A DNA stretch of 64,000 nucleotides from Archangium lipolyticum. GTDB lineage: Bacteria > Myxococcota > Myxococcia > Myxococcales > Myxococcaceae. Each line of letters starts with the position of its first letter. The first letter of the stretch is position 1. Under the pieces are notes generated by a model. It was not told the DNA's origin and made no database searches. It worked only from the letters and a program-made list of their open reading frames with translations. The DNA lies in NCBI RefSeq assembly GCF_024623785.1, contig NZ_JANKBZ010000006.1:124001-188000 (forward strand), written 5' to 3'. Shown piece after piece: positions 32,235 through 64,000 of this stretch. Position numbers and translations under genes: made by a program.

Positions 32235-32310
32235 GAGTCCCGCCTCTCGTCCTCAGCGCCCGGGCGCCGCCGGCTCGCGGCGGGCGCGCCCCTGATGTCC
32301 AGTCGAAGTC

Positions 32311-33384: not shown

Positions 33385-33408
33385 CCGCTCCGTCTCCGTC
33401 TCCATGAA

Positions 33409-35651: not shown

Positions 35652-35672
35652 CGGGGGTTGAGTCTCCGGTCG

Positions 35673-36803: not shown

Positions 36804-36813
36804 ACGGCTCGAG

Positions 36814-37919: not shown

Positions 37920-37923
<4 letters not shown>
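36814..37923 (-). CDS. SDR epimerase, CDP-paratose/tyvelose 2-epimerase-like
   Basis: 369 residues. NAD-binding FGGAGFIGSNVADQYLSDGR, FHFAAQVAVTTSLEGP, the TSTNKVYGGL segment and the catalytic pair in YGCSKG, then RMSCIYGPRQFGTEDQGWVA and the C-terminal FNIGGGPERTVSLLELLDL. The TTSLEGPxxDFEVNARGTLN and STNKVYG stretches are the ones I associate with CDP-tyvelose/paratose 2-epimerases, but a related nucleotide-sugar epimerase or dehydratase is possible. The stop of the upstream epimerase gene overlaps its ATG (ATGA). It makes or interconverts a sugar donor for the glycosyltransferases that follow. Confidence 0.85.
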
Positions 37924-39041
<1,118 letters not shown>

Positions 39042-39336
39042 GTTCCCTCCCATCAACCGCCGCGTCGCGCGCGTTCCAGGTTTGTGAAGGTCAAGGAGCC
39101 AGCCGATGTGCGACGGCCCCGTCTTTCCGCAGGAAGAGTAAGCACCCCGCTGCCCGGCGGTACCCCTGGCCCGATGGATCCATCGCACTGTCGCGAAGCG
39201 CTCTCGCTCACGTGCGTGAGTCGTAGAACCCCGGTCCTAGCACTGGAGTGCAGGGTCTCTCGCGAACAGGCGAGCTGACCTGGAGAGTTGTTTTTTCAAC
39301 CCGACCGCGAACGTTGGAAAGACGAAGGCCGGCGCT
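39042..39336. other. intergenic region, 295 bases
   Basis: Separates the ABC exporter gene from the epimerase gene in the same direction. It contains only a short GTTG-T6-CAAC stem near 39288-39301 and no convincing promoter or ORF. A promoter for the epimerase-to-ugd stretch is likely to lie here because of the size of the gap. Confidence 0.4.
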
Positions 39337-41148
39337 CTACGCCACCGCGGACGACGGATGCATCGGCTCGGGGAGCGACGGCAGCTCCGGCAGCAGCCCG
39401 CGCGTCTGACGTCGCACGAGCGAGGCGTAGTAGCCATCGAGCCGCATCAGCTCGGCATGGCGGCCCTGCTCGATGATCTGCCCGCCCTTGAGCACGAGGA
39501 TGCGATCGGCGTCCACCACCGTGGACAGGCGGTGCGCGATGGCGAAGGTGGTGCGGCCCTTCATCAACTTGCCGAGCGCCTCCTGCACGAGCGCCTCGCT
39601 CTCCGCGTCGAGCGCGCTGGTGGGCTCGTCCAGGATGAGGATCGGCGGATTCTTGAGCAGCGAGCGCGCGATGGAGATGCGCTGGCGCTCGCCCGCGGAC
39701 AGCCGGTTGCCGCGCTCGCCCACCAAGGTGTCGTAGCCCTGCGGCAGGCGCATGATGAAGTCGTGCGCGTGCGCGGCGCGGGCCACCGTCTCGATCTCCT
39801 CCATCGAGGCGTTCGGCCGCCCGTAGGCGATGTTGCTGCGCACGCTCTCGTTGAAGAGCAGTCCATCCTGCAGCACCACGCCGATGTGGCGCCGCAGCGA
39901 CATCTGCTTGAGCGAGCGGATGTCCTTGCCGTCGATGCGCACCACGCCCTCGACCGGGTCGTAGAAGCGGCACAGCAGGCTCATCAGCGTCGTCTTCCCC
40001 GCCCCGCTCGGCCCCACCAGGGCGATCGTCTCGCCCTGCTTCACCTTCAGGTCGATGCCATTGATGAGCGGCTTGTTGGGACCCGAGGACGACGGGTAGG
40101 CGAAGTGGATGTTCTCGAACTCCACCTCACCGCGCAGGTCGGTGACCTCGACGGCGTCCGGGGCATCACCCAGGTGATCCTGCGCATCCAGGATGGAGAA
40201 GACCTGGTTGATGGCCACCGAGGCGGTCCGCAGCGTCTTGTACACGCCGCTCAAGCCCTGCACCGGCCCGAAGAGACCGCCGATGTAGCCGAGGAACGCC
40301 ACCAGGGTACCGGCGGTGATCTGCCCGCGCATCACGAGCACCCCGCCAAAACCGAGCGACGCCACGCGCGCGATGAGCACCACGAGGTTCTGGGTCGCCC
40401 CCACGGTCGCGTCGAAGGCCACGCCGCGCGTCACGACGGAGTTGGCCTCGCGCACGTCATGCAGGAAGCGCTGCTTCTCGCGCTCCTCCATGGCGAAGCT
40501 CTTCACCGTCACGATGCCGGAGAGGACCTCGTTGAAGCGGGCGTAGATCTTCGTCCAGCGATCCATGAGCGTCTGCTCGCGCAGGGTCTGCTTGGGCGCG
40601 GCCCGGCGGGCGATCAGCACCGGGATGGGCGCGAACGCCAGCGCGAGCAGGGCCAGGCGCCAGTCCAGCCGGAACATGATGACCACGGAGAGGATGAGGT
40701 ACGTGGCGGCCGGGATGACGTTGAAGGCCAGCTCGGTGATGGCGCCCACGAAGCCCTGCATGCCGCGATCGAGCTTCGTCATGATCGCGCCCACGCCCTC
40801 CTCGCGGTGGAAGCTGAGCGGGAGGCGGTGGAGGCGCGTGACGGTGGCCTCGTTGAGGGAGAAGTGCACGGCGATGCGCGTGCGCCAGGTGAGCCAGTTG
40901 GACGTGGCCCCGAGCCCCTCGCGTGCCAGGCCGATGAGCACCATCGCTCCCACTCCGAGGAACACGGACTTCCAGGCGCCCCCCGACCCGAGCTGGTCGA
41001 AGATGTGCTTGAGCACCAGCGGCTCCATCGCGCTCAGGCACGCGGAGGTCAGGACGAGGCTCAGGATGGTGATGACCGCGCGCCGGTGGGGGCGGAGGTA
41101 GCTCATCGCCCGCCACAGTGCGCCACGAGAGACGGAAGGAGTCTGCAT
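39337..41148 (-). CDS. ABC exporter, MsbA/lipid-flippase type (fused membrane and ATPase domains)
   Basis: 603 residues. Six membrane spans (about 20-310; for example [19 protein letters not shown]) precede an ATPase domain with Walker [11 protein letters not shown]-loop [12 protein letters not shown], signature LSAGERQR, Walker [13 protein letters not shown] and switch His in IAHRLSTV. The signature has SAGE in place of SGGQ, common in exporters. It works as a homodimer and may flip a lipid-linked sugar or export a glycolipid made by the enzymes encoded next to it. Confidence 0.92.
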
Positions 41149-41291
41149 GGTCGCGACACCAACGCTCGCGACTTTTCTTCCCTTCCATCCGCACCCCGCG
41201 TACGGGCGAGCGGCATACGGCCGTCAACGGGACGCAATCCCGGACGAGTGGCCGCCCGCCCGCTGGAAGGCGGGCAGGCGGCGACGGACGA

Positions 41292-42302
41292 TCAGCCGTA
41301 GATGCTGTCGAGCGCGGAGGCGACCTGGATGAGCCGCTCGGACTCCGGATCGAAGCGCGCACCATGGGACAGGCGGGTGGCCCAGTCCACGGCGGCCCGG
41401 CCGCCCCAGGCATCCGGAGGATCCGCGAGGCGCTCGCGCGAGGTGCCCCAGAAGAGGTCCGCCGTGAAGTCGTAGAACGAGCCGTTCACGTTGCGGAACG
41501 CCGCGCCGCCCTGGGTGCCATAGAAGGACGCCTCGATGACGGCATCGCACCCGGCGGGCAGCTTCCAGGAGCACGCCAGCTGCACGGAGGTGCCGGTGGC
41601 GAGCTCCAACTGCGCGGCGGCGAAGTCCTCGACGGCCTCCCCCCGCTTCTGGAGGGGGCGGCCCTGCGTGAAGAGCTGGCTCGACACGCGCCGGACCTCG
41701 GGGAAGCCCAGCACCCAGAGCGCCAGGTCGACCAGGTGGATGCCCAGGTCCATCACGCACCCGCCGCCCGCGAGCTTCGGGTCGTAGAACCACGCCTTGT
41801 CCGGCCCGTAAGCGTTGTGGAAGACGAGGTTCACCGCGTAGATGTCACCCAGCGCGCCGCCCACGATGCGCTCGCGCAGCTGCCGCATGCCGGTGGTGAA
41901 GCGGTAGCTGAGGTCCACGCCCAGCAGCCGGTCCGCCGCGCGCGCGGCATCCACCACGCGCTTCACCTCCTCGGCCGAGCGTCCGAGCGGCTTCTGGCAG
42001 AACACCGCCAGGCCCCGCTCCAGCGCGCGCACGGACTGCTCCGCGTGGAACGCACTGGGCGTGGCGATGACGATGCCGTCCAGCCCCATCTCGAGCAGCG
42101 CGTCGAGGGAGTCCGCCCGCTCGCTCCCCGGCGCGAGCTTCTGGGCCTCCTCGGCCGCCGCTGGCACCGGATCCGACACGGCCGCCACCTCGACCGTCTC
42201 GCTGCGGGCGATGGCCTCCATGCGGTTGCGGCCGATCCACCCCACGCCGAGGAAGCCAATCCTGGGACGGGGGGACACCTTCTGAATCGTCTGTCGGTTC
42301 AT
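41292..42302 (-). CDS. Gfo/Idh/MocA-family oxidoreductase
   Basis: 336 residues from an ATG that overlaps the stop of the alcohol dehydrogenase gene (ATGA at 42299-42302). Rossmann motif IGFLGVGWIGRNRMEAIA, then VIATPSAFHAEQSV and the family's catalytic segment VFCQKPLGRSAEEV (EKP is replaced by QKP). The C-terminal sheet domain has DLGIHLVDLALWVLGFPEV. These NAD(P)-dependent enzymes oxidise sugars, inositols or nucleotide-sugars. With inositol-1-phosphate synthase in the same locus, an inositol- or keto-sugar substrate is possible. The Glu-to-Gln change in the EKP motif is unusual. Confidence 0.88.
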   Translation of the reverse strand: MNRQTIQKVSPRPRIGFLGVGWIGRNRMEAIARSETVEVAAVSDPVPAAAEEAQKLAPGSERADSLDALLEMGLDGIVIATPSAFHAEQSVRALERGLAVFCQKPLGRSAEEVKRVVDAARAADRLLGVDLSYRFTTGMRQLRERIVGGALGDIYAVNLVFHNAYGPDKAWFYDPKLAGGGCVMDLGIHLVDLALWVLGFPEVRRVSSQLFTQGRPLQKRGEAVEDFAAAQLELATGTSVQLACSWKLPAGCDAVIEASFYGTQGGAAFRNVNGSFYDFTADLFWGTSRERLADPPDAWGGRAAVDWATRLSHGARFDPESERLIQVASALDSIYG

Positions 42303-43306
42303 AGCGTGATGATCGCCTTGAGGAAGCCGTCGGGACGCGTGCGCATCGCCTCGAAGGCCTGGTTGAGCTCGTCCAACCCGAAGCGGTGGGTGAAGAGCGG
42401 GAAGGGATCCAGCCTGCCGGAGGCCACCTCGTCGACCGCGAGCCGGATGCCCTCCACGTAGACCTTGGGGTCGCGCTCGTGGGCGTTGATGACGTCCAGC
42501 CCGCGCCAGTTCCACAGCCACATGTTCACCTGGCGCGGCCCATCCTGGTGGTAGCCCGCGACGATGAGCTTGCCGCGCTCGCGCGTGAGCTCGCCGGCCA
42601 GGTCGAGCGGCCACTGCTCGCCGACCACCTCGATGACGCGCTCGCAGAAGGCGCCATTCGTGAGCGACTTCACGCGATCGATGATCTTGTGGTGGTCATC
42701 CATGGGGATGCACTCGGCGGCGCCGTACGCGCGGGCCAGCTCGAGCGCGTAGGGCCGGCGGGTGATGGCGATGACGCGCGCCCCGGCGTTGGTGGCCAGC
42801 CGCGTCAGCAGCGCACCGAGGAAGCCGATGCCGATGATGGCCACCGTCTGCCCGGGCTGGATGTCGCTGCGGCGGAAGATGTTCATCGCGCAGCCGAGCG
42901 GCTCACCCGGGAAGGGCTTTCCGGCGAGCGAGGGCGGCAGCAGCACCGCCGAGTCCGTGTTCACCACGTCGTACTCGGCATAGGCGGCCGACGACAGGGT
43001 GGCCACGCGATCGCCCACCTTGAAGCCGGTGACACCGCTGCCCACCGCGTCCACCACGCCCCAACCCTCGTGGCCGGGCGCCCCGGGCTGCATTGGATAC
43101 TTGAACCACTCGCGGCCCTCCCAGACGGGGAGGTTGGAGCCACACAGCCCGCAGCCCTCGAGCTTCACGCGCACGGTGCCGGGACCCGGCTCGGGCCGCG
43201 CCACGCGCTCGACCCGCGCCCCTTTGGGTCCCGCGATCACCGCCGCCTGCATCAGGGCGTTCGACACCGCCGCGCCGCCTCCGGCGCCGCTCGTTCGCGC
43301 ATCCAT
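42299..43306 (-). CDS. zinc-type alcohol/polyol dehydrogenase (MDR family)
   Basis: 335 residues from the ATG at 43306 (GGAGG 8 bases upstream). It has GCGLCGSNLPVWEGREW (zinc-binding Cys in place of the usual GICGSD), PGHEGWGVVDAVGSGV, and the NAD motif VAIIGIGFLGALLTRLATN. The catalytic zinc ligands would be Cys in GLCGS and His-Glu in GHEGWG. It lacks the four-Cys structural-zinc lobe as far as I can see. First gene of the minus-strand glycan operon, coupled to the Gfo/Idh gene, suggesting the pair acts in sequence on one substrate. A sorbitol-, inositol- or sugar-type substrate is likely. Confidence 0.85.
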   Translation of the reverse strand: MDARTSGAGGGAAVSNALMQAAVIAGPKGARVERVARPEPGPGTVRVKLEGCGLCGSNLPVWEGREWFKYPMQPGAPGHEGWGVVDAVGSGVTGFKVGDRVATLSSAAYAEYDVVNTDSAVLLPPSLAGKPFPGEPLGCAMNIFRRSDIQPGQTVAIIGIGFLGALLTRLATNAGARVIAITRRPYALELARAYGAAECIPMDDHHKIIDRVKSLTNGAFCERVIEVVGEQWPLDLAGELTRERGKLIVAGYHQDGPRQVNMWLWNWRGLDVINAHERDPKVYVEGIRLAVDEVASGRLDPFPLFTHRFGLDELNQAFEAMRTRPDGFLKAIITL

Positions 43307-43494
43307 CCTCGTTGCCTCCGCTACACCTGGGTGTGAGTGAGGATGCGAAGTGTGGTCGAGCCTGCGTCCGGACAAGCGCCCCCGAGTGGCCCCATGCTTC
43401 AGTCGTGAACCGATGAATGCCGCCGCTGACGCCTGGCGGACGGGGTCGGCGTCCGGGGCGTCGAGGACTCAACGCGGGCCTTCCAGGGCCGGCG

Positions 43495-51432: not shown

Positions 51433-51834
51433 ATGGCCTTCGCGGAATGGGTGTCGGTGTCCGCGCTCCTCTTCGAGGGCGCTGGCGTGGCCGCCATGGT
51501 GGTGGGCACCGTCTTCTCGGCGGTCTCCGTGCTGCTGCGCCTCCGCCGGGAGCCCGGTGCGAGCCTCTTCCGCCATTTCCGCGAGAAGGTCGGCCGCTCC
51601 ATCCTGCTCGGGCTGGAGCTGCTCGTCGCCGCCGACATCATCCGCACCGTCAGCGAGGAGCCCACGCTTCAGGGCGTGATCGTGCTCGGGCTCATCGTGC
51701 TCATCCGCACCTTCCTGAGCTTCACCCTCGCCGTGGAGCTGGAGGGGCATTGGCCCTGGAAGAGCGCGGAGCTGAAGCTGAAGGGGTTGCGGCAGGAGCC
51801 GCCCGTTTCCGAGCAGCGGCACCTGGACCACTGA
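51433..51834 (+). CDS. DUF1622 family membrane protein
   Basis: 133 residues, small integral membrane protein with three or four hydrophobic segments (VSALLFEGAGVAAMVVGTVF, ILLGLELLVAADIIRTVSE and VIVLGLIVLIRTFLSFTLAV). The middle and last of these with the conserved LELLVAADII and IRTFLSFTL are the DUF1622 pattern. Function unknown. It follows ino1 by 8 bases and ends in a strong hairpin, so it closes that two-gene unit. Confidence 0.85.
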   Translation: MAFAEWVSVSALLFEGAGVAAMVVGTVFSAVSVLLRLRREPGASLFRHFREKVGRSILLGLELLVAADIIRTVSEEPTLQGVIVLGLIVLIRTFLSFTLAVELEGHWPWKSAELKLKGLRQEPPVSEQRHLDH

Positions 51835-51862
51835 GGAGGGTGCGCAGCCGCGCCCCCTCCTC
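51833..51862. terminator. bidirectional terminator hairpin
   Basis: GAGGAGGG-T-GCGC-agcc-GCGC-C-CCCTCCTC forms a 12-bp stem with one mismatch, immediately after (and overlapping) the DUF1622 stop and before the stop of the convergent methyltransferase gene. U tract is short (GTTCC), but position and strength fit a terminator. Confidence 0.6.
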
Positions 51863-51870
51863 GTTCCGGC

Positions 51871-52920
51871 TCAGCCGTGACGCGCCACCCGATCCGCGCG
51901 CCGCAGCAGGAAGCCGATCTCCAGCCCCGTGGAGTCCACATCGGGCGTCACGGTGTCTTCCGCGACCACGGCCAGCCCGGCCTCCTGGAACAGCTTCAGC
52001 CAGAAAGCCCGCGTCTCCAGCCGCTGCCGCGTGAAGGGATGGAAGAGGTAGTAGGGGTTGTAGTACGCGAGCGAGAGCCCGTGGCGCATGGCGCGCGGCT
52101 CGTCCATCTTCTGGTCCACCTCGATGACCACCAGGTGGATGTCCGGGAAGCGCTCCGTGAGCTGCTTGAGGAAGCCCACGACGCCCGCCTCGCCCTCCTG
52201 GCCCAGGATCTCATGGAGCACGAAGCCGAGCACCGTCAGGTCCGGCGAGAACGACAGCGGCGTGCGGAAGAACTCCACCGCGCCGCTGCACGTCAGCTGA
52301 ATCCGGCTCTGGAGGTGCTCGCGCTCGACCAGCGCCACGGCCGCCTCATAACCCTTGCGGTCCGGCTCCACGCCCCACGCCTGGATTTCGGGGAACAGCT
52401 TGCAGAACTCCACGAGGTACAAGGCGTTGCCACAGCCGAGGTCCAGCACGCGCTTCACGCCGCCCGGAATCTGGGACATCAGCCGGCGGGTGAGAGGGAT
52501 GGCGTCGTAGTGGCTGATGGCGCAGCTGCCAATTCCAACCAGGTCCGCACGCCGCGAGGCGCTCCCGCTCCCGACCTTCAGCTTGTCACCGAGCTCGAGG
52601 AACGTCTGTCCATACCCACCGATGAGCATGGTGTACCAGCCGCGGAACTCCGCGAGGCCGCGCATCTTGTCGAGCATGTGCACGCGCCCGTTGGCCCCAC
52701 CCAGGTAGCCCTCGTTGCGCATGAACTGCAGGAGCGCGGAGGCGCGCGCGGGCTCGAGCTCGAGCCGCTTGAACAGCTCGCCCTCGTCCTGCTCACCCTT
52801 GGTGAGCGCGTCATAGATGCCACTCTCGAAGACGTGGTGGATGGCCGCCGCCACCACGAACGCACGAATGGGCTGAAGCGCCTCGATGAGGCGGACCTCG
52901 GTCGACGAAAAGGTATCCAT
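51871..52920 (-). CDS. 2-ketoarginine methyltransferase-like enzyme
   Basis: 349 residues. An N-terminal winged-helix dimerisation region (about 1-150) is followed by a SAM-binding domain: VLDLGCGNALYLVEFCKLFP, VGIGSCAISHYDAIPLTRRL before it and DLTVLGFVLHEILGQEGEAG after it. The C-terminus has MRHGLSLAYYNPYYLFHPFT and DSTGLEIGFLLRR. The whole resembles the MrsA family, which adds a methyl to 5-guanidino-2-oxopentanoate (2-ketoarginine) so that an aminotransferase can form 3-methylarginine. The aminotransferase gene lies directly upstream (8 bases). It is the last gene of the NRPS-linked set. Substrate by family resemblance, not proven. Confidence 0.82.
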   Translation of the reverse strand: MDTFSSTEVRLIEALQPIRAFVVAAAIHHVFESGIYDALTKGEQDEGELFKRLELEPARASALLQFMRNEGYLGGANGRVHMLDKMRGLAEFRGWYTMLIGGYGQTFLELGDKLKVGSGSASRRADLVGIGSCAISHYDAIPLTRRLMSQIPGGVKRVLDLGCGNALYLVEFCKLFPEIQAWGVEPDRKGYEAAVALVEREHLQSRIQLTCSGAVEFFRTPLSFSPDLTVLGFVLHEILGQEGEAGVVGFLKQLTERFPDIHLVVIEVDQKMDEPRAMRHGLSLAYYNPYYLFHPFTRQRLETRAFWLKLFQEAGLAVVAEDTVTPDVDSTGLEIGFLLRRADRVARHG

Positions 52921-52928
52921 GGTTTTTT

Positions 52929-54083
52929 TCAGATCCTCGGAGATGCGTGTCCGTAGATGGCGAGCGATTCGGCGAGCAACTTGAGGGCGCGCGAGAGCGT
53001 GTCCCTCGGGGCACCGAGCGGCAGCCGGATGAAGGGGCCGCTCACGCCCTCGTACTGGCTGCACGTCGCGAGCAGGAGCCCGAGCTCGCGCAGGACGGTG
53101 TCGCCGTAGGCCTCGATGTCCTCCACGGGCAGGGACGCGAACAGCTGCGTGCCCCCCACGCCGGGCTCGCACACGACACCGGGCACCTGTCGCAACGCCT
53201 CCGACAGGAGGCGCCTGCCACTCTCCACGTGGTCCACGAGCGCCGCGTTGCCATGCTCGAGGATGGACGCCGCGAGCCGCTGGGACGGGCCCGACACGCA
53301 CACGCACTCGCGCTCGAGCAGCGCCGACAGCATGCGCACGTTCTCCGCGCTCGACAGGACCCAGCCCACCCGAAGACCCGGCGAGCCGTAGTTCTTGGAC
53401 ATGCTGTTGACGGTGTACACGTGCGGCCAGGCCTCGCGATTCGCCAGCGGCGACCCACGGTCCACCCCCGGCTTCGCGAAGCTGTCGTAGACCACGTCCG
53501 CGAGCAGCTTCGCGCCGCGCGAGGCGGCGAGCTCCGCGAGCCGCGCCATCTGGGCGGACGACAGCACCTGCCCCGTGGGGTTGTTGGGGCTGTTCACATA
53601 GATGAGCCGCGTGTCCTCGCCGAGCAGGCTCTCGAGCTCCCCGAGCCCCGCCGCCGCGGAGAAGTAGCGGACGCGGAACCCCGCCGCGCGCAGCATCTGG
53701 GGAATGCAGATGTAGACGGGAGCCTGCACCAACGCCACGCTCCCCGGCTGCGCCAGCGCACGGATGACCAGGGAGAGGCCGTGCAGCGCCCCATTCGAGA
53801 CGAGGATCTCCTCGGGGTTGGGAGAAATCTTGTTGACCGCTCGCTCGCGGGCCTCGATCGCCCGCAGGAGGAAGGCCGAGCCTTCACAAGGGCCATACGC
53901 CAGCGTGTCCTCGGCGTGCAGCACCCCGTCGGGAAACGGGCTCGGCCAGCACGGCACGTTCTCCGCGACGTTGATGAAGGTCCGGTCTGGGCACGCATCC
54001 ACGTAACGCAGCCGTTGCTGCAGGAAGGTGAAAGGGCTGTCCGCGTCGACGATGCTACGCTGCGCTGTGAGATTGCGGGCCAT
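52929..54083 (-). CDS. PLP-dependent class I/II aminotransferase (MrsB-like partner)
   Basis: 384 residues. Fold type I: YGPCEGSAFLLRAIEARERA, NGALHGLSLVIRALAQPGS, VNSPNNPTGQV (cofactor-contacting), DVVYDSFAKPG, the PLP Lys in NSMSKNYGSPGLRVGW and a C-terminal Arg in FIRLPLGAPRD for the substrate carboxylate. With the adjacent methyltransferase it can interconvert arginine and 2-ketoarginine and re-aminate the methylated keto acid. The ATG at 54083 was chosen; an earlier ATG at 54131 is possible. 232 bases separate it from the dehydrogenase gene upstream. Confidence 0.88.
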   Translation of the reverse strand: MARNLTAQRSIVDADSPFTFLQQRLRYVDACPDRTFINVAENVPCWPSPFPDGVLHAEDTLAYGPCEGSAFLLRAIEARERAVNKISPNPEEILVSNGALHGLSLVIRALAQPGSVALVQAPVYICIPQMLRAAGFRVRYFSAAAGLGELESLLGEDTRLIYVNSPNNPTGQVLSSAQMARLAELAASRGAKLLADVVYDSFAKPGVDRGSPLANREAWPHVYTVNSMSKNYGSPGLRVGWVLSSAENVRMLSALLERECVCVSGPSQRLAASILEHGNAALVDHVESGRRLLSEALRQVPGVVCEPGVGGTQLFASLPVEDIEAYGDTVLRELGLLLATCSQYEGVSGPFIRLPLGAPRDTLSRALKLLAESLAIYGHASPRI

Positions 54084-54274
54084 GCGAAAATTTTCTAGGG
54101 AAGCGGCGTCAGTGCCGTGCGGCGTTCGCATGGGACGTCTGCGAACACAGAGCCGCTGGCGGAAGTCGAGAAAGGTTGCTCCGCCCGTGGCGGATGTACT
54201 CTACGAGCGAAGCCTGCGACATCTTCAATGACACTATCAGACGTTTGCGGCGATGGGCAACGCGGAGTTGGGGC

Positions 54275-54298
54275 GCCGCGTACCTCGACGCGGCGCAC
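54275..54298. terminator. perfect hairpin between dehydrogenase and aminotransferase genes
   Basis: GCGCCGCGT and ACGCGGCGC form a 9-bp perfect stem with loop ACCTCG. It lies 18 bases after the stop of the dehydrogenase gene (minus strand). No U tract follows, so it may be a weak terminator or RNA-stabilising hairpin. The rest of 54084-54315 shows nothing else. Confidence 0.45.
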
Positions 54299-54315
54299 CT
54301 GGAATCCCGCGCGAC

Positions 54316-55188
54316 TCAGTACTTGTGGAATCCCTCGCCGCTTTTGCGCCCGAGCTTGCCGGCCGCCACCATCTTGCGCAGCAGCGGACTGCAACGGAAC
54401 TTCGGGTCCTGGTAGCTCTCATACAGGACGTCGATCGAGCTGACGACCGTATCGAGGCCGATCAGGTCGGCGGTCTCGAGCGGACCCATGGCGTGTCCGT
54501 AACATTGCTTGAAAATCTCGTCGATCGCCCGCGCATCGGCGACCTGATCCTGAACGAGAAAGGCCGCCTCGTTCATCATGAGGTGCGAGATGCGGTTGGC
54601 GACGAAGCCCGGCAGGTCGTTGACGACGATCGCCGACTTGCCAAGCGCCGCGAGGAGCGCCGAGGCCCTATCGAGCGTCGCCTGCGTCGTATGAAAACCG
54701 CGGATGACCTCCACCGCGGACTTCAGATAGACGGGGTTCATGAAGTGCATGCCGACGATCTGCTGCGGCCTGCGCGTCACGGCTGCGATCCGGGTGATGG
54801 AGATGCAGGAGGTATTGACGCCAAAACACACTTCCGGGCGGCAGATGGCGTCCAGCTCGGTGTAGACGGCGCTCTTGGTCGCGAAGACCTCTGGAACGTT
54901 CTCGACGATGAAATCGCAGCCGGCGACATCCGCGAGACGCGTCGTGAAACGCAGCCGTTCGAGGGCCTCCGACACCTTCACCTTCGGTAGCGTCGCCTTC
55001 ACCAGACCGCCGAAACGCACCAGCCGTACGATCTCCTCGCGCGCCCGCGCGAGGGCCGCGTCCGAGACGTCGACCAGCACCGCCGACAGGCCATGCAGCA
55101 CCAGGTCGTGCGCTACCCCGATGCCCATCGTTCCGGCTCCGATGACACCGACGGTCTTCAGGTCTGCCGTTGTGTCTCCATTACTCAC
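54316..55188 (-). CDS. 3-hydroxyacyl-CoA dehydrogenase family protein
   Basis: 290 residues from a GTG (55188) that overlaps the hydrolase stop (GTGA), with GGAGG upstream. Rossmann motif VGVIGAGTMGIGVAHDLVLH; catalytic Ser/His region NTSCISITRIAAVTRRP, IVGMHFMNPV, and C-terminal GPLETADLIGLDTVV. Complete HBDH-like two-domain protein, cytoplasmic. It uses NAD(P)H on beta-hydroxyacyl thioesters. In NRPS/PKS clusters relatives prepare hydroxy- or methoxy-malonyl units or act on carrier-bound intermediates; which applies here cannot be read from sequence. Confidence 0.85.
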   Translation of the reverse strand: MSNGDTTADLKTVGVIGAGTMGIGVAHDLVLHGLSAVLVDVSDAALARAREEIVRLVRFGGLVKATLPKVKVSEALERLRFTTRLADVAGCDFIVENVPEVFATKSAVYTELDAICRPEVCFGVNTSCISITRIAAVTRRPQQIVGMHFMNPVYLKSAVEVIRGFHTTQATLDRASALLAALGKSAIVVNDLPGFVANRISHLMMNEAAFLVQDQVADARAIDEIFKQCYGHAMGPLETADLIGLDTVVSSIDVLYESYQDPKFRCSPLLRKMVAAGKLGRKSGEGFHKY

Positions 55189-57305
55189 TGTGCGGCCTCC
55201 AAGGTTGCGCCGGACTTCTCGCCCGGCGTGGGCGGTACGACATCGAGCGCCCAGCAATAAAAGCTTAGCTCGTCGACATCTTGTTCAACGAGCGCCGTCA
55301 ACGTGGTGCCGCCACCGTGTCCCGAGTCCCGGAGCGACAACAGGAAATAGGGTCCGCCCTGCGTGCCTTCGGCCTGGAGCCTGGCGACCATCTTGAGCGG
55401 ATCATGCGGCGGCGCGACCCGGTCGTTCGCCGCCGACACGAAGGCCATCACGGGATAGCGGCGATCGGCCCGGATGTTGTGGTAGGGCGAATACCCGGCG
55501 AGATACGCACCCTCGACGGGATCCTCGGGCGAGCCGTATTCGACGGTCGCCGAGCTCAGGTGGCCGAAACTCGGGAAGCGCAGCATGTCGAGGATGGGCG
55601 CGCGGCAGTAGACGGCGCCGAAGGCCTCGGGCGCTTGCAGGGCGGTGGTGGCGACGAGCAGACCCCCGTTGCTGTTGCCGCGTGAGACGAGCCTGGAGGG
55701 TGTCGTGTAGCCCGCTGAGACGAGCCACCGCGCCGCCGCGATGTAGTCGTCGAAGGCGTTCTGCCGCCGCGTCTTGCATGCCGCCTGGTGCCAGGCGCGG
55801 CCGTATTCGCCGCCACCTCGAATGTTGGCGAAGGCAAGCACGCCTCCCAGCTTCAGCCAGGCGGCATTGAGCGCCGAGAAGCGAGGATCCAGCGCGATGT
55901 TGAAGCCACCGTAGGCGTTCAGGCGCACGGGCTGGCGTCCGTCGCGGGGCAGGCCCTTCCGGTGGACGATGAACATCGACACCCGCGTACCGTCGAGCGA
56001 CTCGTACCAGACCTGGTCCGTCACATACTCCGACGCGTCGAGCCCGACGTCGGGGACGTGGTACGGCGACAGGCGATCCGTCGCGTAGTCATAGCGGTAG
56101 ACCGAGGGTGCCTGAACGTACGACGTGAAGCTCACCCACACCTCGTCGCCGCGCCAGGAGCCGCTGATGCCGCTGACGATGCCGTCTCCCTCGTTGCGAT
56201 TCACCGAGCCGAGGGCTGGCAGCGCGAGGTCGCGGAGGTAGGTGCCGTCCTCGGCGTGGATGCGCACGCGATGCGACGCCGCATGCGAGTAGACGGCGTA
56301 GAGCCGGCCGCCGACACCGGTGACCGTCTGCAGCGTGTCCGAGTTCTCGGGGATGAGCGTCCGCCACTCCGTCGGCGCCGTCAGCGACGCGACGCACAGA
56401 CGGCCGCGCGGCGCGTCGAGGTCGGTCTGGATGAGCAGCGAGTCGCCAATCACCTGCACCTGGTTGACGGACCGCATGACGGGAGCCACCGGCACGAGTG
56501 CGTCGTCTTCGAGGCGCAGCAGGTAGACGACATTGGCGTGCACATAGTCCCACTTGCAGAGCACGGCGAAACGGCGGCACTCGCTCATCTTGACGGTGCA
56601 CCAGTACTCTTTCTCCTGGTCATCGCCGAAGACGCGGCGGGCGGGCACGCCCGATCCGATCCGGTGCTCGTAGATGGAGTTCCAGTGCGCCTCGTCGCCC
56701 GGGGGCACCTCGCCCGGCTCGGGACACGCCGCATAGAAGAATCCCGACGAGTCGGGTCGCCAGGCCACCGACGTGTGGCTCGTACCCCGAGGCCGGTCGG
56801 GAAGCAGCCGCCCCGTCTCGACGTCGAGCACGTGGATCACCGCGTCGTGGGCGTTGCCAATGGACTTCCCGAACGCGACCAGCGCACCGTTGGGTGACGG
56901 CACGGCGTAGACCAGCGCCTCGTTGCTCGCCCACGTGTTGGGGTCGAGCAGCGTCTCGAGCGGCGCGCCCTTGCCGCGCCGGAACATGAACTTGAGCTTG
57001 TTGTCGCTGGCGTCCGCCTTCCAGAGAAACTCGCGTCCGTTCGGCCCGGCGCAAATCGGCGGAGAGAGCCGCGCATAGCGCGCTGAGCGGGCGACCGTTT
57101 CCCGCAGCCAGTCGCGTCCCGGCAACGCGCGCAGCACGGAGTGCGTGACGGCTTCCTGCGCGGCGATCCACGCCTGGGTCTCCGGGGCGTCGAGCCGCTC
57201 CAGCCAGGCGTAGGGATCTTCAAACCGCTTGCCGTGCAACGTGTAGCCGCTCTCCGGCTCACACCGCGTCGTGGGGAACTCCAGGGTCCGGTTCAGGTTC
57301 TTCAT
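55185..57305 (-). CDS. prolyl-oligopeptidase-type serine hydrolase (S9A-like)
   Basis: 706 residues without a signal peptide, so cytoplasmic. N-terminal seven-bladed propeller (about 70-420) and alpha/beta-hydrolase domain: catalytic Ser in SRGNSNGGLLVATTALQAPE, Asp in VSAANDRVAPPHDPLKM and His in RDSGHGGGTTLT. YGGFNIALDPRFSALNAAWL and ANIRGGGEYGRAWHQA are S9A hallmarks. The ATG overlaps the NRPS stop (TGATG; GGAGG upstream). S9 enzymes cleave after proline in short peptides, and the first NRPS A domain is predicted to load Pro, so product release, activation or self-protection by cleavage is an attractive idea. Confidence 0.9.
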   Translation of the reverse strand: MKNLNRTLEFPTTRCEPESGYTLHGKRFEDPYAWLERLDAPETQAWIAAQEAVTHSVLRALPGRDWLRETVARSARYARLSPPICAGPNGREFLWKADASDNKLKFMFRRGKGAPLETLLDPNTWASNEALVYAVPSPNGALVAFGKSIGNAHDAVIHVLDVETGRLLPDRPRGTSHTSVAWRPDSSGFFYAACPEPGEVPPGDEAHWNSIYEHRIGSGVPARRVFGDDQEKEYWCTVKMSECRRFAVLCKWDYVHANVVYLLRLEDDALVPVAPVMRSVNQVQVIGDSLLIQTDLDAPRGRLCVASLTAPTEWRTLIPENSDTLQTVTGVGGRLYAVYSHAASHRVRIHAEDGTYLRDLALPALGSVNRNEGDGIVSGISGSWRGDEVWVSFTSYVQAPSVYRYDYATDRLSPYHVPDVGLDASEYVTDQVWYESLDGTRVSMFIVHRKGLPRDGRQPVRLNAYGGFNIALDPRFSALNAAWLKLGGVLAFANIRGGGEYGRAWHQAACKTRRQNAFDDYIAAARWLVSAGYTTPSRLVSRGNSNGGLLVATTALQAPEAFGAVYCRAPILDMLRFPSFGHLSSATVEYGSPEDPVEGAYLAGYSPYHNIRADRRYPVMAFVSAANDRVAPPHDPLKMVARLQAEGTQGGPYFLLSLRDSGHGGGTTLTALVEQDVDELSFYCWALDVVPPTPGEKSGATLEAAQ

Positions 57306-60300
57306 CACGAGCCCCTCCTCCGGCGCGCGACCAACTTGCTGCGATTCGCATCGCCGGGTTCAGTCCGGCGCACGGTGTCGCGGTCCGCCGCCGGCTCCTT
57401 CAGGTACGCCGCCTGAGCGCGCAGCGTCGGGAAGCGGAAGAGCGTGGCCACCGGTACCTCGCGGCCCAGCGCTTCGCGCAGAAGGCTCTGAAGACGAACG
57501 AGCCCCAGTGACGTGCCGCCGAGATCGAAGAAGTTGTCGTCGAGCCCAATGCGCTCGGTGCCAAGCGCACGCGCCCACGCCGCGGCGACGGCCTGCTCGA
57601 TCCGGTCGCTGGGAGCGGCGTAGGCCGGGCGGTCGCCGCCGGTCGCCACCGCCTGCGGTGCCGGCAGCGCCCGGCGGTCCACCTTGCCACTCGCGTTGAG
57701 AGGCAGCGTCGGCAGCTGCACGAAGTGCGACGGCACCATGTAATCCGGAAGCGCCGCGGCGAGACCCGCGCGCAGCGCCTCCTCGAGCTGGGGTCCGGCG
57801 CGGTCTTCTTCGGCGACGTAGTAACCGCAGAGGCTCGCATCGCCGCCCGTGGCACCGCGCACGGCCACCACCGCGTCCTTGATGCCCTTGCAGCGCCGCA
57901 TCATGGCTTCCACCTCGCCGAGCTCGACACGGAAGCCACGCACCTTCACCTGATGATCGATGCGGCCGCGGTACTCGATCTGCCCATCGTCCCGCCACCG
58001 CGCGGCGTCGCCGGTGCGGTAGAGACGGCCGCCATCGGCACCGTGCCCGAAGGTATCGGGAACGAAGCTCGCCGCCGTCAGGTCAGGCCGGTTGAGATAG
58101 CAGCGCGCCAGACCGGCGCCACCGATCGCCAACTCGCCCACGACGCCGACCGGCGCCAGACCCCCGTGATGGTCGATGATGCGGAGCGTGACGCCCGCGA
58201 GCGGTTTGCCGATCGGGATCTCCCCGGAGCCGTCCCAATCCGCGAGCGAGAACCCGCTGGCGTAGATCGCCGCCTCGGTCGGGCCGTAGAGATTGTGGAT
58301 CCGCACCGCCGGACAGAGCGAGCGGAAGGCCTCGATCGGACCCGGTACGGCGGCCTCGCCCGCCAGGAACACATGGCGCAGGCTCCCGAGTCGCTGCGCG
58401 GTGGTGGCGTCGAGCCCCTCGACCCAAGCTCCGAACATGGACGGAACGAAGTTGAGGTGCGTCACGTTGTGGCGGGCGATCGCCGCGACGATCGCCAGCG
58501 GGTCGCGCTCGCCCCCGGGTTCGAGGAGCGCCAGCCGGCCGCCTGCGTGCATCCAGCCGAACAGCTCCGCCGCCGAGACGTCGAAGGTGCTGGCGGTCTT
58601 GTGCAGGTAGACGCCGTCGGCCTCGAGCGGATACGCCTGCTGAAGCGCGAGGATCGTATTGACGATGGCGCGGTGCTCGACGACGACGGCCTTCGGTGTC
58701 CCGGTCGAGCCGGAGGTGTACAGCAGGTACGCGGCGTCTTCCGGACGCGCGCTGTCGCTGGCCGCGGGCGCGCCGCCCTGCTCGACCAGAGCGCGGACAC
58801 CACAGGTTTCGCAGCTCGTGAGCAGGAAGGCCGGGTCGGCGTCGTTTCCGAGGATGAGGCGTGCACCACTATCGCGAAGCATGAACGCCGTCCGATCCGG
58901 TGGCGTTTTCGGATCGATGGGCAGATAAGCGCCACCCGCCTTCAACACGCCGAAGACGGCAACGACGAAGTCGACCGAGCGCTCGAGGCGCAAGGCGACG
59001 ACGGAGCCGCGCCCCACGCCCTTCGCGGTCAAAGCCGCGGCCAGACGGGTCACCCGCTGATCGAAAGACGTATAGGTGAGCGTCTCGCCGGTGGCGGACA
59101 AGATGGCGGGCCGGTCACCGAAGCGGGCGGTCGCCGCGCTGAGCAGCGCCGGTAGCGTCATCGCGTCTGCCTGAGGCCGCGGCACCGGCGACGTCGCCAA
59201 CGTGTCGAGGAATGCGCGTCCCTCGTCGTCGACGAGGCTCAGCTTTCCGATGGGCGCATCCGGACCCGTGGCGATGCGGAGGCCAAGCGTCGCGAAGTAG
59301 CGCGCGAACCGCGCCACCGTCTCGGGACGGAACAGGTCCGAGGCATACTCGAACGTGGCGGTCAGCCCTCCGTCTCGCTCGGCCAGGTACAGCGAGAGGT
59401 CGAACTTGCTGGCGACCACGTCCGTGTCTCGCGGCGTCACCTTCAGCCCGGCGCTGTTCGGAACCGAGAGGTCGATGTTCTGCAGCGCCAGGAACGCGTC
59501 GAACAGGGGGTTGCGCGCGGTGTCTCGCGCCGCGCCCAGGCGCTCGACGAGCTCCTCGAACGGATAGTCCTGGTGCTCGAAGGCATCGAGCGTCGTCCGG
59601 CGCACATCCGCCAGGAAGGCGCGGAAGCTCTTCCGCGCATCGAGCTGATTGCCGAGCGCGAGCGTGTTGACGAAGACGCCGACGATGTCTTCCAGGTCGG
59701 CGTGGTTGCGGCCCGCGACCGGTGTACCCACGACGGTGCGGTCCTGCCCGGTGAGCTTGGCGAGGAAGACGTGGAAGGCCGCCAGGCTGACCATGAAGAG
59801 GCTTGCGCCCTCCTCACGGGCAAGACGGCGCCAGCCATCCACGACCGCCGGTGGCAGGGTGAAGTGGGTGAGCGCCCCGGCCGTGGTGCGAACCGGCGGC
59901 CGCGGCAGATCCGTCGGCAGGTTCAGGACCGGCGTCTCACCGGTGAAGCGGCTGCTCCAGAAATCCGCCAGGCGTTGCCGGCGCTGCTGCTGCGCGGGCG
60001 TCTCCAGCCAGGCGACGTAGTCCACGTACTGCAGACGCGGCGGAGTCAGTGTCTCGCCGGCATAGAGCTTCAGCAGGTCGCGCAACAGGATACCGGTCGA
60101 GACGCCATCCAGCGCGATGTGATGGAAATCGAGAGCCAGTGTCGCTTGCTCCTGCCCCGTGCGCAGGAGCAAGGCCCGGATCAGCGGCGGCCTGGCGAGG
60201 TCGAACGGCCGTACGAAAGCCGTGATGCGCTGAGGCACCTCGCTGGCCGTGACGTCCGCTACGGCGAACGGTACCTGCACCGTGTCCTCGATACGCTGGA

Positions 60301-63300
60301 AGAGCACGCCGTCCTCGAGGAAGAAGCCGGTGCGCAGCGCCGCGTACCGGGCCACCAGGGCCGTCAACGCGCGTTCGAGCCTCGCCGCATCGACAGCACC
60401 GCTGAGCTCGACCGCGAGCGGCAGGTTATAGGCCAGGGTCTCGGGCGCGAGTGCGCTCAGCACGAAGAACCGCTGCTGAGCTGGCGACACCCGGTAGCGC
60501 GCCTGCGGTGCCAACGCCTGGATGGGCTCGTGGCGTTGGAGCGCGGCGGCGCGAATCCGCTCGGCGATGGCGCCGAGCGTCGCCTCCTCGTAGATCGCCG
60601 CCAATGGCAGCGCGACACCGAAGGCCCGCTGGACGCGCGCCGCCAGCAGCATCGCCTTGAGCGAATGGCCTCCCTGCGCGAAGAAGTCCGAGTCGGTACC
60701 GAGCTTCGCGGCGTCGACGCCAAGAGTGGAGGCCCACAGCTCAGCGAGCTTCACCGCGAGCGGGTCACCGAGCGGCACCGACCGGGGCGCCGGCGCAGCC
60801 GTGGTAGCCACGGCACGCAGACGCCGCCGATCGACCTTGCCGTTACCGGTGAGCGGCACGGCCTCGATGCCGATGAACACAGGCGGCACCATGTAGGACG
60901 GCAGCGTCTTTCCCAGCTCGGCGCGCCAGCGGGACGCATCCTCGGGCGAGACCTTGCCCTCCTGCGGCACCACATACGCCACCAGGCGGCGCCGCCCTCC
61001 TCCGTCGTCCACATCCAGGACGACGGCCTCCTTCACCCCGGCCAGCTGGCGCAACCTCTGCTCTATCTCCCCCAGCTCGACCCGGAATCCTCGAATCTTG
61101 ACCTGCTGGTCTATACGCCCGAGGTACGTGACGGTTCCGTCGGGCTTCCAGCACCCGAGGTCTCCGGAGCGATACACCCGCTCGCTTCGCGCCGCCTCCG
61201 GCAACAACGAGGCCGGCATCGTCGCGTCCGGCAGGCCTCGACGGTAGCGCTCCGCCGTGAGGTCATCCCGGCCGTAGTAGCCCCGGCCGACGGGCCGGCC
61301 TCCGAGGTAGATTTCTCCCGGCGTGCCAACGGGCTGGCTCATCCCGTTCTCGTCGAGCACGAAGATACGGAAGTTCGACACCGGCTTGCCCAGGGCGGGT
61401 CGCGCCGCGACCTCGCTTCCCGCCCCGAAGGCGGCGGCGATCACCAGGTGCGTCTCGGAGGGTCCGTAGTGGTTGTGCAGCGTCACACGTCCCTCGCGCA
61501 CGGCCTGCGCGAGCAACGGCCCCACCATCAGCGCTTCACCCGCCGCGATGAAGTGGCGCACGCACGCCGGAACGGCCGCGGCCATCTCCGCGTCGGCGAA
61601 GAAGGTATCGAGCAGTGCCGGCGTCAAGTACACGACCTCGACCCCGCGGCGCTCGAGCAGCGCCAACAGCCTCGGCACGTCCCGCTGTACCCCCGGAGGG
61701 ATGAGGTGCAGTTGGCCACCTGTCAGAAGGGTCGTGAACATCTCCTGCGCCGACACATCGAAGCCGATGGAGGCCAGCTGCAGCACCTTGGGTACCGCCG
61801 GCAGTCCCATTTTCTCCCGGGTGTACTCGGCCAGGTTGAGCATCGTGAAGTGCTCGACCATGACGCACTTGGAGTTGCCCGTGGAGCCCGAGGTCGAAAT
61901 CAAATACAGCAGGTCATCGGGCCCGCTCTCCACCGTCGGCACCGGCGCCGCGGGCGCCGTCTCCAGCCGGTCCAGCGACAGCAGCGTGCGCGCCCTGCCC
62001 TCCCCGGACTGTCCGGCCTCCTTCAGCCACTCGAGCTTGCGTCCTTCGAGCGCCGACGTGGTGCTGACGAGGTGTTTGACTCCCACCGAGCTCAGTACCT
62101 CTTCGATTCTCCCGTCCGGCAGCTCGGGGTCGAACGGCAGGTAGGCGCCTCCCGCCGCGATGATTCCCAGCACCGCCGCCACCATGTCCGGCGAGCGCTC
62201 CACCAGCAGGCCCACCACCGTCTCCCGCTTCACTCCAGAGGCGCGCAACACGGCCGCTATCCTCTCGGCTCGGGCCGCCAGCTGGGCGTACGTGAGCTGC
62301 CCTTCCTCCCACACCACCGCCACGCGCTCCGGCGTTCTCGCGGCCTGGGCCGCGAACGCGGCCGGCACGCTCGGCCCGAGCGCGACATTCCTGTCCGTGG
62401 CGTTGAAGGCGACAACCACCTGCTGCCGCTCCTCTTCGCCCATGACGTCGAGCTTGCTGACCCTCCGCCCCGGCTCTTGCACCAGCAGTCGCAGGGCCCG
62501 CTCGAAGTAGGTGCACAGCCTCTCGGCCTCCTCCGCGGTGAACGCCGGCTGCGCGTGGCTCACCACCAGTTGCAGGCGCTCTCCCGTTGTATCCACCGTG
62601 AACTCGAGCTGCATGTCGGTCCGGACATGCCCCTCGGCCTCTATCTTCCTCTCGGCCCCGGCCGTCAGCGCTCCGTCGTCTCCGAAGTCCGTGTAGTTGA
62701 AGAAGGCCGAGAAGAACGGATTGCCCCCGCGCGCGTCCTCCCCGGTCACACGGATGATTTCCGCCAGAGGCAGACGCTCGTAGGGCCTGACGGCCTGAAG
62801 GCGCGCCTCCACCGTCCGCGCCAGCTCCTCCCAGCTCGCCTCGGCCGGCATCCGGATGCGGAACGGAATGGTGTTGAGGAAGCAGCCCAGCAGCCGGTCA
62901 CCGTCAACACACGTCGGCCGGTCGTGCGCCACCAGTCCAACCACCATGTCCGCGTGGTAGTTGAACATCGACATTGCTTCCAGGTACGCCGTCAAGCACA
63001 GCGTCTTGACACTCACGCCCCGCGCCTTCGCCGCCCCGCGCACCGCGGTGACAAGCGTCGGTGGCAGCTCGCGGCTCATCTCCCGCACGTCGTGCGGCTC
63101 GTTGCGCCGCGCTTCGGCGAATTTGTCGAGAGGCACGAAGCCCTGGAGCTCCTCGCGCCAGAAGGCGGCGGCCTCGGGCCTGCGTCGCTCGAGCAGTTGC
63201 TGCAGAACGTGCTCGCGGTGCCGGCTGCTCAGCGGCTCCGGTCGGAAGCCGGGCTCCACCTCCAGGCGGCGGTAGATGGCGTCGAGCTCGCGCACGAACA

Positions 63301-64000
63301 GCGATGCGCTCCAGCCATCGAGGATGGCGTGGTGGGCGACGAGCGCCAGCACCAGCCGCCCTCCGCCGCAAGCAAATGACTGGACGCGCCACAGCGGCGC
63401 CTGCTCCGGCACGAACGGCCGCGTCCGGTCCTCCGCCAGCCACGCCCGCACCGCCTCCGACTGCTGGCGTGCGTCCATGCTGGCCAGCTCGAGGTGGCCA
63501 TACACGACAGGAGCGTGCTTCTCGACGAGGAGCAAGGGTCCGTCAGGGCTGTCCAGAACGAAGCGCGAGCGCAGCACCTCGTGCTTCCCGGCGAGCAACA
63601 CTAGCGCACGGCGGAAGCGCTCGGCGTCGAAGCCCGGAGCCGAGAACTCATACACCAGCTGGTCGTGGTAGACGCCCTCCCCCGGCGACTTCAGGCCGTG
63701 GTAGAGCATGGCCTGCTCGATATCGGTGGCGGGGTAGACGTCGTCGAGCGACTTGACGTCTGCGAAGGCCGCTACGCCCTCCTTGAGGCGCGCGAACTCC
63801 GCGGCAAGCGCAGCACGCTCTCCGTTCTCATCAGTGGCCGAGGCCGAACCAGAGACCAGCGCCGAAAGCCTGGCGAGCGTGTCGTGCTGGTAGAGGTCCG
63901 GAATGCGCAGCTGCGTGCCGAAGGCCTCGTTGACGAGCCCGACCAGACGGATGGCGCGAATGGAGTCGCCGCCCGCATCGAAGAAGCTGCGATCCGCCGC
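57305..64000 (-). CDS. nonribosomal peptide synthetase, PCP-C-A-PCP-C-A-PCP (5' part outside window)
   Basis: The frame is open to the right edge, so about 2231 residues are visible. Order: PCP (Ser in FDAGGDSIRAIRL); C1 (HHAILDG at about 63325); A1 with STSGSTGNSK, HYGPSET, RSGDLG and specificity residues DVQYIAHLVK, a proline-type code; PCP1 (QGGHSLKAM); C2 (HHIALDG); A2 with YTSGSTGTPK, LYGPTEA, RTGDAARW and residues DVANFALIYK, which match no code I know; PCP2 (LGGTSLGLV) and a basic tail. There is no thioesterase or reductase domain after PCP2. The gene is translationally coupled to the prolyl-oligopeptidase-like gene. No epimerisation or methylation domain lies in the visible part. The final product is unknown. 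Confidence 0.95.
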   Translation of the reverse strand, partial: AADRSFFDAGGDSIRAIRLVGLVNEAFGTQLRIPDLYQHDTLARLSALVSGSASATDENGERAALAAEFARLKEGVAAFADVKSLDDVYPATDIEQAMLYHGLKSPGEGVYHDQLVYEFSAPGFDAERFRRALVLLAGKHEVLRSRFVLDSPDGPLLLVEKHAPVVYGHLELASMDARQQSEAVRAWLAEDRTRPFVPEQAPLWRVQSFACGGGRLVLALVAHHAILDGWSASLFVRELDAIYRRLEVEPGFRPEPLSSRHREHVLQQLLERRRPEAAAFWREELQGFVPLDKFAEARRNEPHDVREMSRELPPTLVTAVRGAAKARGVSVKTLCLTAYLEAMSMFNYHADMVVGLVAHDRPTCVDGDRLLGCFLNTIPFRIRMPAEASWEELARTVEARLQAVRPYERLPLAEIIRVTGEDARGGNPFFSAFFNYTDFGDDGALTAGAERKIEAEGHVRTDMQLEFTVDTTGERLQLVVSHAQPAFTAEEAERLCTYFERALRLLVQEPGRRVSKLDVMGEEERQQVVVAFNATDRNVALGPSVPAAFAAQAARTPERVAVVWEEGQLTYAQLAARAERIAAVLRASGVKRETVVGLLVERSPDMVAAVLGIIAAGGAYLPFDPELPDGRIEEVLSSVGVKHLVSTTSALEGRKLEWLKEAGQSGEGRARTLLSLDRLETAPAAPVPTVESGPDDLLYLISTSGSTGNSKCVMVEHFTMLNLAEYTREKMGLPAVPKVLQLASIGFDVSAQEMFTTLLTGGQLHLIPPGVQRDVPRLLALLERRGVEVVYLTPALLDTFFADAEMAAAVPACVRHFIAAGEALMVGPLLAQAVREGRVTLHNHYGPSETHLVIAAAFGAGSEVAARPALGKPVSNFRIFVLDENGMSQPVGTPGEIYLGGRPVGRGYYGRDDLTAERYRRGLPDATMPASLLPEAARSERVYRSGDLGCWKPDGTVTYLGRIDQQVKIRGFRVELGEIEQRLRQLAGVKEAVVLDVDDGGGRRRLVAYVVPQEGKVSPEDASRWRAELGKTLPSYMVPPVFIGIEAVPLTGNGKVDRRRLRAVATTAAPAPRSVPLGDPLAVKLAELWASTLGVDAAKLGTDSDFFAQGGHSLKAMLLAARVQRAFGVALPLAAIYEEATLGAIAERIRAAALQRHEPIQALAPQARYRVSPAQQRFFVLSALAPETLAYNLPLAVELSGAVDAARLERALTALVARYAALRTGFFLEDGVLFQRIEDTVQVPFAVADVTASEVPQRITAFVRPFDLARPPLIRALLLRTGQEQATLALDFHHIALDGVSTGILLRDLLKLYAGETLTPPRLQYVDYVAWLETPAQQQRRQRLADFWSSRFTGETPVLNLPTDLPRPPVRTTAGALTHFTLPPAVVDGWRRLAREEGASLFMVSLAAFHVFLAKLTGQDRTVVGTPVAGRNHADLEDIVGVFVNTLALGNQLDARKSFRAFLADVRRTTLDAFEHQDYPFEELVERLGAARDTARNPLFDAFLALQNIDLSVPNSAGLKVTPRDTDVVASKFDLSLYLAERDGGLTATFEYASDLFRPETVARFARYFATLGLRIATGPDAPIGKLSLVDDEGRAFLDTLATSPVPRPQADAMTLPALLSAATARFGDRPAILSATGETLTYTSFDQRVTRLAAALTAKGVGRGSVVALRLERSVDFVVAVFGVLKAGGAYLPIDPKTPPDRTAFMLRDSGARLILGNDADPAFLLTSCETCGVRALVEQGGAPAASDSARPEDAAYLLYTSGSTGTPKAVVVEHRAIVNTILALQQAYPLEADGVYLHKTASTFDVSAAELFGWMHAGGRLALLEPGGERDPLAIVAAIARHNVTHLNFVPSMFGAWVEGLDATTAQRLGSLRHVFLAGEAAVPGPIEAFRSLCPAVRIHNLYGPTEAAIYASGFSLADWDGSGEIPIGKPLAGVTLRIIDHHGGLAPVGVVGELAIGGAGLARCYLNRPDLTAASFVPDTFGHGADGGRLYRTGDAARWRDDGQIEYRGRIDHQVKVRGFRVELGEVEAMMRRCKGIKDAVVAVRGATGGDASLCGYYVAEEDRAGPQLEEALRAGLAAALPDYMVPSHFVQLPTLPLNASGKVDRRALPAPQAVATGGDRPAYAAPSDRIEQAVAAAWARALGTERIGLDDNFFDLGGTSLGLVRLQSLLREALGREVPVATLFRFPTLRAQAAYLKEPAADRDTVRRTEPGDANRSKLVARRRRGS

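Follow-up and report, generated by a model that had tools for sequence, protein, structure and literature searches.

A predicted N-acyl-D-Asn prodrug cluster of Archangium lipolyticum with methylarginine and methylproline supply genes and a coupled prolyl-oligopeptidase-fold hydrolase

The window analysed here, 64,000 nt of Archangium lipolyticum DNA (G000:C6:124001-188000; genome G000, 12.6 Mb, 69% GC), cuts a 55-kb biosynthetic cluster that reaches C6:~231.0 kb, and its positions 51871-64000 form the distal end of that cluster. The unusual feature is a combination: a myxobacterial acyl-D-Asn prodrug cluster, supply genes for methylarginine and methylproline, and a coupled, altered prolyl oligopeptidase (POP-1). 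The initial annotation had proposed a peptide with Pro and methylarginine, released or activated by a post-proline hydrolase. Support for this composition comes from an MrsAB gene pair, from three A domains of the Pro type and from another whose code is acidic. Release or activation by the hydrolase is not supported: the cluster encodes its own thioesterase and an S12 prodrug peptidase/exporter, so that neither release nor unmasking requires POP-1. We propose instead a prodrug cluster in which POP-1 cleans up peptide inside the cell, an explanation that we consider reasonably probable as a whole.

Comparison with related genomes delimits the cluster. Its left flank extends to window position 51820 and its right flank begins at C6:231049, with 55.2 kb between them in G000 and 1.9 kb between the same flanks in the sister species G065 (flank identity 93-97%); the whole cluster is therefore one island. 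The same flanks are spaced by 4.4-9.4 kb in G061, G062, G063 and G064. The island begins and ends with the outermost genes of the cluster (Table 1). Sugar-nucleotide, GFO/IDH/MocA, epimerase and ABC genes adjoin the island (window 30927-43375) and have the look of an exopolysaccharide locus.

Table 1. Features of the island. Plain numbers are window positions; C6 numbers are contig positions.
Feature	Position	Strand	Remark
Island portion inside the window	51821..64000	.	Full island 55.2 kb, runs to C6:231048
MrsB-type 2-ketoarginine methyltransferase	51871..52920	-	TIGR04543, 469 bits (cut-off 425)
MrsA-type 3-methylarginine aminotransferase	52929..54131	-	TIGR04544, 369.9 (cut-off 350)
FkbK-type 3-hydroxyacyl-CoA dehydrogenase	54316..55188	-	Pfam 3HCDH; homolog in Paenibacillus set L028
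S9A prolyl-oligopeptidase-fold hydrolase (POP-1)	55185..57308, conserved ATG at 57305	-	Pfam, PDB, structure
NRPS G5	57305..64000, on to extended coordinate 66361 (C6:190361)	-	Domain search
Last A domain of G5	57683..59119	-	Code DVANFALIYK
Pro-type A domain of G5	60836..62353	-	Code DVQYIAHLVK
NRPS/PKS G6	C6:190527-202592		Beyond window
ACP	C6:202850-203113		Island, beyond window
FkbH	C6:203139-204185		Island, beyond window
C-A(Asn)-T-E	C6:204202-208941		Island, beyond window
S12 peptidase fused to ABC exporter (S12-ABC)	C6:208713-211805		1030 aa; beyond window
C-A-T-C	C6:211827-216533	+	Island, beyond window
Methyltransferase	C6:216546-217247	+	Island, beyond window
2OG oxygenase	C6:217297-218061	+	Island, beyond window
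KS-AT-KR-T-C-A(Pro)-T-TE	C6:218178-226544		Island, beyond window
Acyl-CoA DH	C6:227145-228017	+	Island, beyond window
2OG oxygenase / Zn-ADH / P5CR trio	C6:228091-230968	+	Island, beyond window

The prodrug assignment centers on the S12-ABC fusion and on the Asn module. ClbP is the closest PDB match of the S12 part (165 bits), while the best AmpC-type entry reaches ~77 bits. The catalytic SxxK and Tyr are present, with S98-C-S-K101 and Y193 aligning with ClbP S95/K98/Y186. Asn 331, Ser/Thr 188, His/Asn 257 and Glu 92 are the diagnostic or conserved residues of prodrug-activating peptidases (PMC9889268), and all the D-Asn-recognition residues tested are present at the ClbP-aligned positions (Asn 331, Ser 188, Asn 257 and Glu 92). 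The ABC part has a Pfam ABC_tran match, a weak ABC_membrane match just below the cut-off and hydrophobic segments. At 1030 aa, the fusion can be set beside ZmaM-like proteins of ~1100 aa (PMC9889268). The Asn module has the order C-A-T-E, with the A code DLTKVGEVGK and an E-type motif, HHLVVDV; its N-terminal C domain, a putative acylating starter domain, carries HHIIADG. Together, the ClbP-like S12 residues and the Asn-specific C-A-T-E module point to an N-acyl-D-Asn prodrug system, and on this sequence evidence we regard the cluster as very probably of that type.

Comparable pathways are known from other bacteria. Those of zwittermicin (zma), paenilamicin and edeine share the acyl-D-Asn first module, the ZmaM-type S12 peptidase-ABC fusion and the FkbH/ACP/dehydrogenase extender genes, whereas a myxobacterial genome, methylarginine and methylproline supply genes and a POP in the operon set the present cluster apart from them. 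The best full-length S12-ABC identity was 42% in a bacterial genome collection that may omit the window's own genome, and no S12-ABC besides that of G000 was found in the 193 sampled Myxococcota genomes. Our best reading is a new prodrug cluster with no second example in those genomes. Corramycin, a hybrid linear peptide from myxobacteria, is likewise believed to arise from an acylated precursor, but it is a FAAL-started, His/beta-hydroxy-Val peptide for which methylarginine is not named (PMC10099666), and gene content rules it out as the cluster product. A search for a known myxobacterial methylarginine product or Archangium product found none in the open-access literature, a weak negative as most subscription papers fall outside that scope.

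The assembly line is spread over several genes. A-domain specificities were read from classical ten-residue codes aligned to GrsA, whose reference residues were verified; the Thr, Pro and Asn assignments rest on these codes. NRPS G5 has the order [half C]-A(Thr)-T-C-A(Pro-type)-T-C-A(DVANFALIYK)-T, in keeping with the proline-type module expected from the window, and the substrate of its last A domain is possibly small. A second gene, G6, reads [half C]-A(Thr)-T-C-A(Pro)-T-KS-AT-T-C-partial A-luciferase-like monooxygenase. The split is unusual in that the opening C domain of both G5 and G6 is reduced to its second half and G6 closes with C-partial A-luciferase-like monooxygenase. Over their first 1950 residues G5 (C6:181305-190361) and G6 are 91.5% identical, and at the sequence level the two-module block common to both is a recent duplication. 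The cluster has three Pro-type A domains in all, and one A domain has the acidic code DPESIGHVDK, which would suit a basic residue. The initial annotation had found no thioesterase in the NRPS; this holds for the G5 protein, which ends in a carrier domain, but not for the cluster, since a thioesterase ends the PKS/NRPS gene at C6:218178-226544 in the same island, an outcome which that annotation had itself named as refuting its proposal.

Supply of methylarginine is indicated by two adjacent genes. MrsA and MrsB make up the 3-methylarginine pathway of Pseudomonas syringae, and the pair here agrees with it in gene adjacency and in passing the same two family models; both scores exceed the NCBI curated equivalog cut-offs, which upholds the MrsA/MrsB-like pair of the initial annotation. 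The two systems differ in that the P. syringae enzymes make a free amino acid, while the pair here would serve an NRPS assembly line. From the junction sequence, MrsB starts at ATG 52920, and an open reading frame up to 53307 is over-extended. Family models are blind to substrate, and a model for the related RiPP enzyme ApyS also scores, weakly, so the pair might methylate something other than 2-ketoarginine and leave the product without methylarginine. We consider this very unlikely given that both equivalog cut-offs are passed, that the DPESIGHVDK domain is present and that at least two of three other MrsB loci adjoin NRPSs with an acidic-code A domain. Those three loci in the phylum (G063:C280, G127:C1 and G077:C270) each lie beside a different NRPS cluster; acidic-code A domains occur in two of the three regions, the third being on a short contig. 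Methylarginine-type supply may thus be more widespread in Myxococcota. As relatives of the present cluster the three loci are ruled out, having neither POP nor S12-ABC.

A second supply route involves the 2OG oxygenase/Zn-ADH/P5CR trio. Relatives of the three genes (74-91% identity) occur together in G062, G115 and G129, where the adjoining NRPS ends in a module that combines a TE with an A domain of Pro type (DVQFIAQ). The same row of 2OG oxygenase, Zn-ADH and pyrroline-carboxylate reductase next to Pro-type NRPS modules is found for griselimycin (GriE/F/H) and nostopeptolide (LdoA/NosE/NosF) (PMC5676206). Because the trio and the Pro-type NRPS mirror the logic of GriE/F/H and NosE/F, 4-methylproline is its likely product by analogy. 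The trio oxygenase matches no GriE structure among the solved structures searched, and its WelO5-like match is weak; the Leu-hydroxylation step is thus suggested by gene context. The island also holds a predicted methoxymalonyl-ACP set (FkbG-K), with FkbH over its cut-off, ACP, 3HCDH and acyl-CoA DH. The island methyltransferase is generic and is given a methoxymalonate role by context, through its homolog in a Paenibacillus set (L028), and by sequence the set appears complete save for this enzyme. In L028, of Paenibacillus jilunlii, the same FkbH, ACP, 3HCDH, acyl-CoA DH and methyltransferase genes also stand beside a homologous S12-ABC.

POP-1 is a full-length S9A protein (PDB match E 4e-116; structure Z 45 to pig POP). 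Its propeller and hydrolase fold are present, the catalytic Ser, Asp and His are intact, and the fold also covers PCY1 and OphP (Z 42-45). The coupling of an S9 hydrolase gene to the NRPS, claimed earlier from the window, is confirmed by a TGATG shared by the G5 stop and the POP-1 start, and extends to the next gene, where the POP-1 stop overlaps the GTG start of the 3HCDH gene (GTGA). The proline-stacking S1 Trp (W595 of pig POP) is Ala in the alignment of all 21 POP-1 sequences and is kept as Trp in the correctly read paralogs POP-2 and POP-3. This change is placed by alignment because the S1 loop of the POP model is of low confidence. No signal, TM or hydrophobic segment is predicted in the POP-1 sequence, and the protein would therefore be unable to act in the periplasm.

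The distribution of POP-1 sets it apart from the rest of the cluster. Orthologs occur in 21 of 193 Myxococcota genomes and six genera (74-88% amino-acid identity), and in most Myxococcaceae species that carry it POP-1 is a lone gene at differing loci; an empty site is seen in G121. In nearly all genome pairs DNA homology breaks off at the borders of the gene, whereas POP-2 and POP-3, the paralogs used as controls in these genomes, have flanks in common, which rules out a vertically inherited housekeeping gene. No C, A, T, KS or AT domain profile matched near the 20 other POP-1 copies (coverage is short on one side in G101 and G095), with the same profiles giving 8 matches in G000, and a conserved NRPS partner is thereby ruled out as well. 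The gene tree is at odds with the genera and places the G000 copy apart from that of the sister species, with low deep support. Taken together, the spread, the gene-edge homology, the tree and the lack of NRPS genes nearby indicate that POP-1 in G000 is a captured gene and not an ancestral partner of G5.

Two further loci were observed in this survey. At G082:C188:18408-22619, POP-1 lies 142 bp from divergent methylproline-type 2OG-ADH genes with no NRPS near, through chance or a functional link. In G065 (C1:6354074-6359149), genes downstream of POP-1 have homologs at separate G000 loci, with breaks near gene ends, which suggests gene-level mosaicism in accessory regions.

From the domain ends and A-domain codes, we infer a module order and a set of monomers. 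Module 1 would make acyl-D-Asn, and later modules would bring in Thr, 4-methylproline or Pro units, the methylproline coming from the trio, and a basic residue for which MrsAB probably supplies 3-methylarginine. PKS extensions would be included, probably with one methoxymalonyl unit, and the thioesterase of the last PKS/NRPS would free the chain. During export, the S12 peptidase/ABC exporter would remove the acyl-D-Asn to give the active product. POP-1, co-translated with the last-but-one NRPS, would stay in the cytosol, and its most likely action would be to hydrolyse active peptide within the cell.

This assignment of POP-1 to second-line self-protection is by analogy, and we put it forward tentatively. 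Paenilamicin offers the precedent, as its PamJ and PamZ combine a prodrug with intracellular inactivation, by acetylation in the case of PamZ (PMC9054821). For POP-1, a cytosolic location would be fitting if active peptide has to be cleared within the producing cell. No other resistance enzyme was seen in the cluster, which fits a protective POP-1 without proving it. Homologs without NRPS genes elsewhere mean that POP-1 may have an unrelated job, and its gene may even be a passenger that wandered into the operon and plays no part in the pathway. The differing loci and gene-edge homology in most Myxococcaceae species with POP-1 favor a passenger, as does dN/dS, which is higher in G000 comparisons (0.29-0.32) than among congeners (0.16-0.26); values for the paralogs POP-2 and POP-3 were discarded where a wrong reading frame had been used. 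However, dN/dS is still well below 1, frame and triad are both preserved, and an exact overlap at each of the two junctions would be unusual for a neutral insertion; the exact in-operon fusion argues against a meaningless one. We find a passenger possible, if rather doubtful.

POP-1 could also act as a maturation enzyme, as the initial annotation had broadly suggested, and trim the peptide after its release or close it into a macrocycle at Pro or methylproline, in the manner of Zmn22 or PCY1/OphP. Translational coupling inside the operon and the shared PCY1/OphP fold are in its favor, as is zeamine, in which the POP-family hydrolase Zmn22 sits within a prodrug-type antibiotic cluster and was proposed for prodrug removal (PMC3547906). 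That proposal was made because the zeamine cluster lacks an XcnG homolog (PMC3547906), while a ClbP/ZmaM-type enzyme is present here, and Zmn22 has 345 aa (PMC3547906) against a full-length S9A protein in POP-1. The points that weigh on release or activation by the POP weigh on maturation too: the cluster already has a TE and an S12 prodrug peptidase, POP-1 carries Ala in place of the S1 Trp, no NRPS was detected near the copy of any of the 20 other genomes, and periplasmic action is excluded for a protein with no export signal. We therefore regard a maturation role as unlikely. A bolder version of the clean-up role would make POP-1 a gene-sized mobile degrader of peptide antibiotics that hops singly between Myxococcaceae with no visible mobile element and, captured in frame here, forms the intracellular half of a two-part self-resistance in which peptide hydrolysis complements prodrug export; we think this quite improbable.

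If the favored explanation of a prodrug cluster with POP-1 clean-up is true, the few acyl-D-Asn prodrug pathways gain one from a myxobacterial genome. The cluster would then be predicted to make a cationic methylarginine/methylproline peptide with intracellular killer-type activity. It would also offer a concrete case in which to ask whether prodrug pathways rely on hydrolysis of the peptide, as well as on acetylation, for second-line self-protection. The lone wandering POP-1 gene is a separate puzzle of single-gene movement in Myxococcaceae.
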